A stretch of DNA of 22,258 nt from positions 1 through 22,258 of IMG/VR virus record IMGVR_UViG_3300023104_000130. One strand, written 5' to 3'. Positions 10,188 to 11,792 of this stretch are shown piece by piece. The stretch is from a virus. The notes under the pieces were generated by a model. The model was given only the letters and a program-made list of their open reading frames with translations. It was not told where the DNA came from and ran no database searches. The translations under genes and the position numbers were made by a program. Position 1 is the stretch's first letter. Each line of letters opens with the position of its first letter.

Positions 10188-10472
10188 TCAATGAGGTAAA
10201 AGGTTAGAAAAATCATCAGATTGCAAATCCCGTATTTCAGGAATCTCATACAAATAAAGTAAACTTTCTGACAAGGCCTTGAAAGCTGGGGATAATTCTC
10301 TAGCGGAAAAATTATCCATCTCATCATCATCGGCATTTTCAAGCGCCTTTGTGAACATATGATCAAGTTGAATTTTAACCTGAATCAAACTTACACCGCA
10401 AAGTATTAGCGGTTCAACTGCAGCCATAACGGCGGCGTTAATTTTTCTTCGTTTTTTCTCTTGGTTCTGCAT
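10188..10472 (-). CDS. Small accessory protein, paralogue of the gene at 11524-11739
   Basis: A 94-residue protein of unknown function. From about residue 15 to 70 it aligns without gaps to the 71-residue protein at 11524-11739, with about 23 of 55 positions identical. Shared blocks are P-L...C-G-x-S-L, I-x-L..-M-F, and N-A-x-D-D-E-x-D-N followed by A and P...A-L. The basic N terminus (MQNQEKKRRK) and helical acidic body are compatible with a small regulator, but no family is recognised. The start codon and next four codons are perfectly complementary (13 nt) to a segment of the upstream RNA at 10507-10519, so translation may be controlled by RNA pairing. Its stop is 2 nt before the ATG of the 81-residue gene. 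Confidence 0.6.
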   Translation of the reverse strand: MQNQEKKRRKINAAVMAAVEPLILCGVSLIQVKIQLDHMFTKALENADDDEMDNFSARELSPAFKALSESLLYLYEIPEIRDLQSDDFSNLLPH

Positions 10473-10564
10473 AATAAGAAATTTTTAAAAAGCCCACAAC
10501 AAAGACTGCAGAACCAAGAAAACTTGAAGATGCCCGATCTTCCTTCGAGCTTCGATGTTGTGGG
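10459..10564 (-). promoter_or_regulatory. Structured leader RNA (RNA B) pairing with the downstream start codon
   Basis: Two perfect inverted repeats interleave. Pairing 1 joins 10564-10557 with 10500-10493 (8 bp, CCCACAAC/GTTGTGGG) and is followed on the minus strand by five T (10491-10487), which resembles an intrinsic terminator. Pairing 2 joins 10519-10507 with 10471-10459 (13 bp); its downstream arm starts at the second base of the ATG of the 94-residue gene. Between the arms of pairing 1 lies a further 6-bp hairpin (10542-10537 with 10531-10526, 5-nt loop). The order is arm1, arm2, arm1', arm2', so the pairings form a pseudoknot or exclude each other. The pairings are read directly from sequence; a regulatory role for translation or termination is inferred. 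Confidence 0.6.
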
Positions 10565-10622
10565 TGGATTTTTTTACTTTTTAATTGAAACATATAGTTT
10601 CTGTTTTAATGATTCTGCAAAG

Positions 10623-10630
10623 CAAAGATA
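10623..10630 (-). promoter_or_regulatory. Possible Bacteroidota -7 promoter box upstream of RNA B
   Basis: TATCTTTG matches the TAnnTTTG consensus of the main Bacteroidota sigma factor. Upstream TTG triplets sit about 15 and 23 nt away, so the -33 element is not at the usual spacing. It would start transcription about 50 nt before the first RNA B stem. Confidence 0.35.
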
Positions 10631-10750
10631 TTTTTTTCTCAGAAACAACAGTGCAATTACCCCAAGTATTTTAATAAAAATTGCAGGTATTACATTGATT
10701 AATGGATGTTTAAGAGGTTTTAAAAAGAAATATACATTAAATTGTAGATA

Positions 10751-11266
10751 TTACCTGTATGTTATCTCGTTATAAAAACAATCAATTGAATCATTAAACT
10801 TATCAGTCCATTTTTTCTTTTTCACATCGAAATCAAAATTAGATTTTGAACTTTCAACACGAATCTTTTTAATACCAATCTTCCTAATCAGCTCAATTTG
10901 ATTTAAATTAATAATGTAAACACTCTGAATTTCAGTTTGATTTTGTGAATTAATTTCTCCATATGTCAAATCAAGAGCAGACAAATTAATAACATCATCG
11001 TTTTTCAACAATATACTAATGGGTGCATCCCGACCAATAACAACGGATTTGGAATAAGTAAAAGTTAAATCTGAAACAAGAAATAGTTCATCACTTTTTT
11101 TTAATGATAGCTTTAAGTACATAGCATTACCTTCTGAAATAGTTTGGCTTTTTGTTTTTACCTTTTTTAGTTTAGTAAAACTATCAACTTCATTATAATG
11201 AAACTTACAATCTTGCGAAAAACCCTTAATAGACATAAACAACAATAATAAAATAATTTTTTTCAT
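10751..11266 (-). CDS. Secreted accessory (moron-like) protein, unknown function
   Basis: A 171-residue protein with a clear Sec signal peptide: MKK, a hydrophobic core (IILLLLFMSIKG), and a likely cleavage near FSQ-D at residues 17-19, a pattern common in flavobacterial exported proteins. There is no lipobox Cys. The mature part is K/S-rich and beta-patterned (LFLVSDLTFTYSKSVVIGRD), with two Cys (CKFHY near the N terminus, DCFYNE near the C terminus) that could form a disulfide. A virion structural role is unlikely; an exported product expressed from the prophage is plausible. A terminator-like hairpin lies upstream and RNA B lies downstream, which fits a self-contained inserted cassette. 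After the stop the same frame stays open for 58 more codons. Confidence 0.65.
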   Translation of the reverse strand: MKKIILLLLFMSIKGFSQDCKFHYNEVDSFTKLKKVKTKSQTISEGNAMYLKLSLKKSDELFLVSDLTFTYSKSVVIGRDAPISILLKNDDVINLSALDLTYGEINSQNQTEIQSVYIINLNQIELIRKIGIKKIRVESSKSNFDFDVKKKKWTDKFNDSIDCFYNEITYR

Positions 11267-11288: not shown

Positions 11289-11296
11289 TAAATATA
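11289..11296 (-). promoter_or_regulatory. Weak -7-like box before the secreted-protein gene
   Basis: TATATTTA differs from TAnnTTTG only at the last base. It sits directly after the T-tract of the upstream terminator and 22 nt before the ATG at 11266. It could simply be part of the A/T-rich tail; no -33 element is evident. Confidence 0.25.
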
Positions 11297-11323
11297 AAAA
11301 AAGCCACGCTAAAACATGGCTTT
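11296..11323 (-). terminator. Intrinsic terminator at the 3' end of RNA A
   Basis: Stem of 7 bp (11300-11306 with 11317-11323, AAAGCCA/TGGCTTT) with a 10-nt loop. On the minus strand it is followed by a run of T ending at 11296. It would end RNA A before the secreted-protein gene. Confidence 0.7.
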
Positions 11324-11477
11324 AATTATAATATAAAGGAGCTCTCTTTGCAGTCTTGACCAATCATTCAACGAGAAATGAGTCCGGGTTCGTTTCCTAA
11401 TCCCCGAAAACCTGAAAGCTCCAGTATCAATCAGTTGATTAATATGGAGCATTTCTCGTTTATCGAAATAATTGGTC
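11297..11477 (-). ncRNA. Candidate structured non-coding RNA (RNA A)
   Basis: Several nested inverted repeats give one consistent minus-strand fold. The outer helix is 11477-11471 with 11364-11358 (7 bp, GACCAAT/ATTGGTC). An internal loop of 10 and 5 nt leads to a perfect 11-bp helix, 11460-11450 with 11380-11370. Inside are two hairpins. Hairpin 1 (11449-11419) has a 5-bp and an 8-bp stem, one bulged base, a 4-nt loop and one G-U pair that exists only in minus-strand RNA. Hairpin 2 (11408-11403 with 11388-11383) has 6 bp and a 14-nt loop. A T-tract terminator follows. A TAnnTTTG box ends 5 nt before the outer helix, so a start near 11477-11475 is expected. An 86-residue open frame crosses the region, but nested helices explain the sequence better. 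No known RNA family is claimed. Confidence 0.65.
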
Positions 11478-11481
11478 GGGG

Positions 11482-11489
11482 CAAATATA
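11482..11489 (-). promoter_or_regulatory. -7 promoter box for RNA A
   Basis: TATATTTG is a full match to TAnnTTTG and lies between the terminator of the preceding gene and the first helix of RNA A. The expected start, about 5-7 nt downstream, coincides with the 5' end of the predicted structure. No TTG is present at the -33 position, which lowers confidence. Confidence 0.45.
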
Positions 11490-11490
11490 T

Positions 11491-11513
11491 AAAAAAACCA
11501 CGCATTGGCGTGG
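11491..11513 (-). terminator. Intrinsic terminator after the 71-residue gene
   Basis: Perfect 6-bp G/C-rich stem (11498-11503 with 11508-11513, CCACGC/GCGTGG), 4-nt loop, and seven T on the minus strand (11497-11491). It lies 10 nt after the stop at 11524, and directly before the promoter-like box of RNA A. Confidence 0.8.
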
Positions 11514-11523
11514 AGCTTTAGGA

Positions 11524-11739
11524 TCATTTCTTCTTTCGTTTTTTTCTGATGTTCTCGAGTAGTTGGCATAGTGCCAGATAAACGGGAGTAGTTCTTTTTG
11601 CCGTGTAATTGTCAAGCTCATCATCTGGAGCATTGCTCACGGCGGCCGCAAACATTTCGTGCAAAATAATTCTTTGATCCGACAGCGATAATCCGCACTC
11701 TAAAAGAGGTGCAATTGTTTTTTCTAGTTTCTTACTCAT
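11524..11739 (-). CDS. Small accessory protein, paralogue of the gene at 10188-10472
   Basis: A 71-residue protein (MSKKLEKTIAPLLECGLSLS...) with a strongly basic C terminus (NIRKKRKKK). Its core aligns without gaps to the 94-residue protein, including C-G-x-S-L, M-F and N-A-x-D-D-E-x-D-N. The frame extends to a TTG at 11772, but the ATG at 11739 matches the N-terminal alignment limit and follows an A-rich leader, so it is preferred. It is followed by an intrinsic terminator. The function is unknown. Two copies flanking the RNA A, secreted-protein and RNA B block suggest duplication around, or during, insertion of that block. Confidence 0.6.
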   Translation of the reverse strand: MSKKLEKTIAPLLECGLSLSDQRIILHEMFAAAVSNAPDDELDNYTAKRTTPVYLALCQLLENIRKKRKKK

Positions 11740-11792
11740 TTGTTTTGTTATATTGGTCAATTTATAAAACAACCTAATGTAAGATTTTAGTA

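Follow-up and report, generated by a model that had tools for sequence, protein, structure and literature searches.

The c4 antisense RNA of phages P1 and P7 lies on the same transcript as its small-ORF target, near an antirepressor gene. In P4 immunity, the CI RNA acts together with the sequences seqA and seqC, transcription is terminated prematurely and CI is processed from the transcript (PMC4825925). The Gifsy-1 prophage RNA IsrK is made from one prophage promoter as short and long isoforms, in which alternative structures open or close initiation at a small ORF, with anrP translated behind it (PMC4825925). In Escherichia coli, the passages on tisB in PMC7708055 describe a structured leader with a pseudoknot, a sequestered initiation region and a ribosome standby site.

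We analysed a 22,258-nt stretch of viral DNA (the window), which is a virus record of IMG/VR and in which a structured RNA, here RNA A, had been predicted on the minus strand among tail genes. RNA A and a second RNA in the window, RNA B, are members of one undescribed family in Flavobacterium-type phages, and it appears probable that they represent prophage antisense/leader riboregulators of translation initiation. To our knowledge, this would be the first phage antisense/leader system of such a kind described in Bacteroidota. By our comparison, P4 seqA-CI-seqC and Gifsy-1 IsrK would be the nearest known devices. As in P4, a strand within a prophage leader is antisense both to a copy upstream (seqA in P4) and to one downstream (seqC) on the same transcript, a feature found in RNA B and its relatives assuming one transcript per locus. 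However, the downstream copy is here the start codon region, whereas P4 acts by premature termination, and no sequence relation was found between P4 CI and the present RNAs. IsrK is likewise a prophage RNA whose alternative structures govern initiation of a small ORF, but the short IsrK RNA activates in trans, and the present RNAs have no Rfam match. The likeness to c4 lies in the antirepressor (Ant) gene near the RNA in Polaribacter phage Leef_1 (gp31), in Flavobacterium genome G318 (phrog_524 match) and, by sequence resemblance, probably in G008; such an arrangement recalls the c4-icd-ant and P22 immI regions. In contrast, no antirepressor gene was identified in the window, and the c4 covariance model in Rfam gave no match to the present RNAs. 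The structured leader, pseudoknot and sequestered initiation region are shared with tisB as described in those passages, which differ in presenting a standby-site mechanism and in describing no 5' copy of the start region.

Fold, signals and conservation of RNA A

The computed minimum free energy (MFE) of the minus strand of 11297-11490 was -62.3 kcal/mol, a value reached by none of 200 dinucleotide shuffles (-38.8 +/- 3.8 kcal/mol; z -6.15), whereas the plus strand folded less strongly (z -4.6). The MFE structure contains an outer helix (GACCAAU../..AUUGGUC), a perfect inner helix of 11 bp (AACGAGAAAUG/CAUUUCUCGUU) and a junction with two hairpins, as the original prediction had described; what that fold lacked was the antisense strand and a conserved pseudoknot helix (B:T), which is formed between the 3' tail (GAGAGCUCC) and the 3' arm of hairpin 1 (GGAGCUUUC) and crosses the outer helix. 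Because the tail is similar to the hairpin 1 5' arm, strand B of RNA A can pair with either, so that B:T and the lower part of hairpin 1 are alternatives. An extra pairing at the 5' end (CCCCGA/UCGGGG) was dropped as most of its bases lie before the predicted start, and a local T hairpin was judged by eye not to be conserved.

The -7 box and the terminator of RNA A were located where they had been proposed, and a further terminator that had been missed lies just upstream (Table 1). The TATATTTG box is invariant or near-invariant across RNA A homologues; the DNA upstream of it diverges, and TATNTTTG is kept in all homologues of the RNA A type. Mapped promoters of F. psychrophilum have the -7 box at -12 to -5 (PMC9723704), and as the spacing from box to start would be the same here, transcription is predicted to begin at G11477, in agreement with the 5' end proposed before.

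Table 1 Predicted features of the two RNA loci in the window
Feature	Position	Strand	Remarks
Intrinsic terminator, just upstream of RNA A	11491..11513	-	CCACGCCAATGCGTGG-TTTTTTT
RNA A, -7 box TATATTTG (sigma-A type)	11482..11489	-	
Predicted transcription start G of RNA A	11477	-	4 nt past the box
RNA A, P1 5' arm GACCAATTATTT	11466..11477	-	
RNA A, P2 5' arm CGAGAAATG	11450..11458	-	covaries: CGAGGAATG, CGAAGAGTG in relatives
RNA A, hairpin 1 (5' arm A, 3' arm B)	11418..11450	-	
RNA A, B strand GGAGCTTTC	11414..11422	-	partner is hairpin 1 5' arm or T
RNA A, hairpin 2	11383..11408	-	
RNA A, P2 3' arm CATTTCTCG	11372..11380	-	
RNA A, P1' strand GAATGATTGGTC	11358..11369	-	predicted antisense strand
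RNA A, T strand GAGAGCTCC	11338..11346	-	partner of B (pseudoknot helix); three covarying pairs
Intrinsic terminator of RNA A	11296..11323	-	
fam0a, 71-aa gene	11524..11739	-	predicted RNA A target; homologues in related phages holding the region
UUGACCAAU, fam0a initiation region	11752..11760	-	predicted trans target of RNA A P1'; 9-bp complement
Motif TTGGGGTNNNTGCACYNTTG	10646..10665	-	possible operator and -33 TTG; common to five class-B leaders
-7 box TATCTTTG of RNA B	10623..10630	-	
RNA B, second member, 146-nt leader	10473..10618	-	predicted +1 at 10618; directly upstream of the 10188-10472 gene
RNA B, 5' arm GCAGAATCA	10610..10618	-	imitates start region
RNA B, strand B CCACCCACAACA	10556..10567	-	
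RNA B, P1' TTTCTTGGTTCTGCA	10507..10521	-	9 bp with 5' arm or 15 bp with start region
RNA B, strand T TGTTGTGGGC	10492..10501	-	
fam0b, 94-aa gene	10188..10472	-	start ATGCAGAACCAAGAG complementary to RNA B P1'

A DNA similarity search of 50,697 phages gave no match to RNA A, the tape measure protein used as bait recovered no relatives, and the matches to relaxed DNA patterns were mostly chance. Terminase relatives led to two phages carrying RNAs 69-71% identical to RNA A amid the same genes, and a DNA pattern, a genome collection and a covariance model led to further homologues, the added members being G008, G009, G010, G003, G324, L183 and two Flavobacterium prophages. RNAs of the RNA A type are carried by prophages of F. 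kayseriense F-47 (the same as G002) and Flavobacterium sp. 14A (the same as G009). The covariance model, a search suggested with the original prediction, scored 134 bits for G003 and 76 bits for G324, neither of which was in its training set. RNA A type RNAs are rare, as the model matched only 2 of 399 evenly sampled genus genomes and 1 of 397 family genomes, and they lie amid phage genes wherever the surroundings were read.

In an alignment of six phage RNAs (mean column identity 83%), 98% of the base-pair cells of P1, P2, upper hairpin 1, hairpin 2 and the crossing B:T helix were paired, and pairing fell to 38-53% in a control in which the partners were slid. The compensatory changes that had been proposed as a check were found, with seven pairs changed on both sides compared with 2.6 +/- 1.1 in shuffled alignments (0 of 500 as high), three of them in B:T. 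The aligned RNAs also differ by indels of 1, 2 and 4 nt, which are evidence against a conserved overlapping reading frame, the finding that had been named as contrary to an RNA. In G010 (L078, 2400-2550) hairpin 1 has a changed 5' arm (GCGCUCU vs GCUCCUU) and B:T is intact, which suggests that B:T may be of greater importance than the lower hairpin 1 stem.

A single G-U pair had originally been cited in favour of the minus strand; there are many, and as they would be A-C mismatches on the opposite strand, the structure can be attributed to minus-strand RNA. These mismatches, together with a crossing helix that covaries and a promoter box at a constant distance from the 5' end, also argue against an operator, recombination site or packaging site mistaken by chance for an RNA; the strong inverted repeats, and a place that varies among phages, would suit such a DNA-level element, which we disfavour as extremely improbable. 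The varying position of RNA A amid the same genes instead marks it as a separable unit. The proposal of an independent RNA unit among tail genes holds in that RNA A is separable and has its own promoter-like box and, in the window, its own terminator, but in relatives it mostly has the position of a leader to a downstream gene. Its assignment to no known family was borne out, as none of 4227 Rfam models matched the window at the gathering threshold, and at E<=1 no match overlapped the RNAs in the window, L208, L212, L100 or L056.

The wider RNA family and RNA B

RNA A had been treated as unique, but it has a sister, RNA B, in the same window, and the family comprises 16 RNAs with the common order 5' arm, P2, hairpin 1, B, hairpin 2, P2', P1', T. 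P1, formed by the 5' arm and P1', interlocks with B:T to give an H-type pseudoknot with the hairpins in its loops. Every one of the 16 RNAs has both P1 and the crossing B:T helix, and 0-7 of 300 shuffles equalled the B:T of a given RNA; P2 in the most diverged members is a by-eye judgement. The promoter box (TAnnTTTG) lies 4 nt before the 5' arm in all members shown, with the exception of L183 B, which has TACTTTAG.

Scans with structural descriptors identified RNA B and the members in G008, L100, G318 and Leef_1 (24538), and the second member of L183 was spotted by eye and confirmed afterwards. The members are few and partly related by descent. On 3 x 4.36 Mb of shuffled sequence the descriptor gave 10 matches when the reading-frame filter was left off, and on the real 4.36 Mb with that filter it gave eight matches, seven of which were family modules. 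A match in L234 looks like chance, and the descriptor search found no member in the related phages 6H, laban6-1 and BT-TP2 or in a Microcystis phage. The prophage G400, missed by the covariance model, carries an RNA that follows a homologous promoter and precedes the same gene, and in this RNA P1 (GACUUACCGUUU/GAACGGUAAGUC vs GACCAAUNAU/AUNAUUGGUC) and the B:T core (GCCCUUGC/GCAAGGGU) keep their pairing with wholly different letters. The motif TTGGGGTNNNTGCACYNTTG, a possible operator plus -33 element, also lies upstream of the -7 box in G008B, L183B, G324 and G400.

Predicted pairing of the antisense strand with initiation regions

Eight members are of the leader type (class B). Several of them were found with a descriptor that required start complementarity, so that their number should be weighed against the matches in shuffled sequence given above. 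In all eight, P1' is complementary to the start region of the following gene, whose product has 91-107 aa. The match is strong in five (RNA B (winB), G008B, L183B, L100 and Leef_1) and modest in three (G324, G400 and G318); in most RNA A type members complementarity to the next gene is absent. The computed energy of P1' with the start region, against that of P1' with the 5' arm, was -23.8 (15 bp) vs -17.2 kcal/mol in RNA B, -18.9 vs -16.7 in G008B, -22.9 vs -15.5 in L183B, -24.6 vs -18.5 in L100 and -17.3 vs -20.6 in Leef_1, with weaker pairing to the start in G324, G400 and G318. When compared with 275-276 other start regions, the member's own start ranked first or second in the five, and 10th, 25th and 26th in the three. 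As the arm pairs with P1' more strongly than the start does in four leader-type members and more weakly in the other four, the resting state may differ between them. In each, the predicted +1 G lies 4 nt past the -7 box, and the 5' arm repeats the gene sequence starting at the G of AUG. P1' remains complementary to the 5' arm as well as to the start even though the letters change between members, and the MFE fold of the RNA B leader with its gene start (186 nt) sequesters the start codon.

The complementarity among these three elements points to the following mechanism. The transcript would begin on the first base of the 5' arm and fold into the pseudoknot of P1 interlocked with B:T, and P1' would be antisense to the initiation region of a small fam0-type phage gene. 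Where that gene lies directly 3', as with RNA B, the 5' arm and the start codon region would compete for P1': with P1 formed the start would be free, with P1' on the start codon translation would be blocked, and the 5' arm could pull the P1' strand away from the start. Judged from sequence, the leader RNA thus probably switches translation of the small gene on or off, in a presumed direction and on a presumed trigger signal. Flavobacterium mRNAs lack a Shine-Dalgarno sequence and are initiated in dependence on the structure surrounding the start codon (PMC6847099), so that blocking the start region would be a sensible mode of regulation. Bacteroidota do not rely on Shine-Dalgarno sequences, and the covariation, the predicted target and the members in the isolated strains F-47 and 14A and in phage Leef_1 make RNA-based translation switching by their phages testable.

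An attenuator or antiterminator of the tail operon, in which B:T and a U-rich stretch would form a conditional terminator for downstream late genes, would draw on the U-rich DNA that follows T in several family members and on the real terminators that flank RNA A in the window. However, the P1' match to start codons would be left unexplained, and by eye six homologues have no terminator between RNA A and the next gene, making this very unlikely.

RNA A would end at its own terminator in the window and could act as a separate small RNA on the upstream fam0a gene. Its P1' has no start match at the next gene in the window, and P1' (AUUGGUCAA) is complementary to UUGACCAAU, located 13-21 nt upstream of the fam0a start. 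Ranked against initiation regions of the same phage, the fam0a site was first in G002, G005 and G008, first or second of 34 in the window, by the stretch used, and second of 20 in L183, and was thus among the top two sites in five of eight phages. G003, G009 and G010 have no good P1' match at fam0a (ranks 12-15), yet P1 is conserved. We favour RNA A as a candidate small RNA acting on fam0a, less confidently than the role proposed for RNA B. As a general rule, a role as plain leader of the gene behind it (fam3) was rejected, since complementarity to fam3 was found only in G002 and G010 and the RNA precedes other genes in the window and in G324. Combining both types, we tentatively suggest that the family may form a class of riboregulator in which the 5' end of the transcript would be a start-codon decoy, with a pseudoknotted antisense strand common to decoy and start, and in which RNA A-like copies would be trans-acting sRNAs against a sister gene.

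Small proteins and gene neighbourhood

The window genes 11524-11739 and 10188-10472 are two diverged copies of one small-protein family, each adjoining its own RNA. The small protein is predicted to be all-helical (pLDDT 84.8). Searches of the small proteins against Pfam, PHROGs and NCBIfam gave no family match, and a fold search against solved structures gave none. When profiles were compared, fam0b showed no relation to the proteins of Leef_1, L100 and G318, and a fam0 profile search of 389 genus genomes returned only three already known.

An all-helical domain predicted with fair confidence, encoded directly behind the RNA in leader-type members, would be consistent with a leader bound by the fam0-type or another phage protein in autoregulation, the likeness of 5' arm and start being a common binding site. 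We consider this unlikely, as complementarity that is kept while the letters change is explained by pairing and not by a sequence-specific site. The combination of a promoter, a pseudoknotted RNA, a small gene of about 93 aa and U-rich stretches after T would also be expected of an RNA-antitoxin pair, in which the RNA would be the antitoxin of the small protein, either of type I (antisense) or of type III (pseudoknot upstream of the gene). Against this, the proteins match neither those family collections nor a solved fold, there is no sign of toxicity, and each locus has a single pseudoknot unit in place of the tandem pseudoknot repeats of type III systems, and no ToxN-like protein was recognised in those family collections; such a pair is distinctly improbable. 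Regulation of initiation by pairing is the preferred reading.

In Leef_1 (L229, NC_062750), gp29 is annotated at 24539-24991, which places its start inside the leader RNA; the true start is likely 24710 (MQHPENENK..., 93 aa), and this gene is followed by gp30 and then by the antirepressor gp31. A variable, moron-like island lies between tail genes in the window (10751-11266), in L065, L072 and L076 (fam8) and in L072 and L212 (fam11), holding unrelated kinds of secreted or membrane small proteins at the same place. In both phage 6H and phage laban6-1 (L230, L231), a type I toxin gene of the SymE family is annotated close to the terminase.
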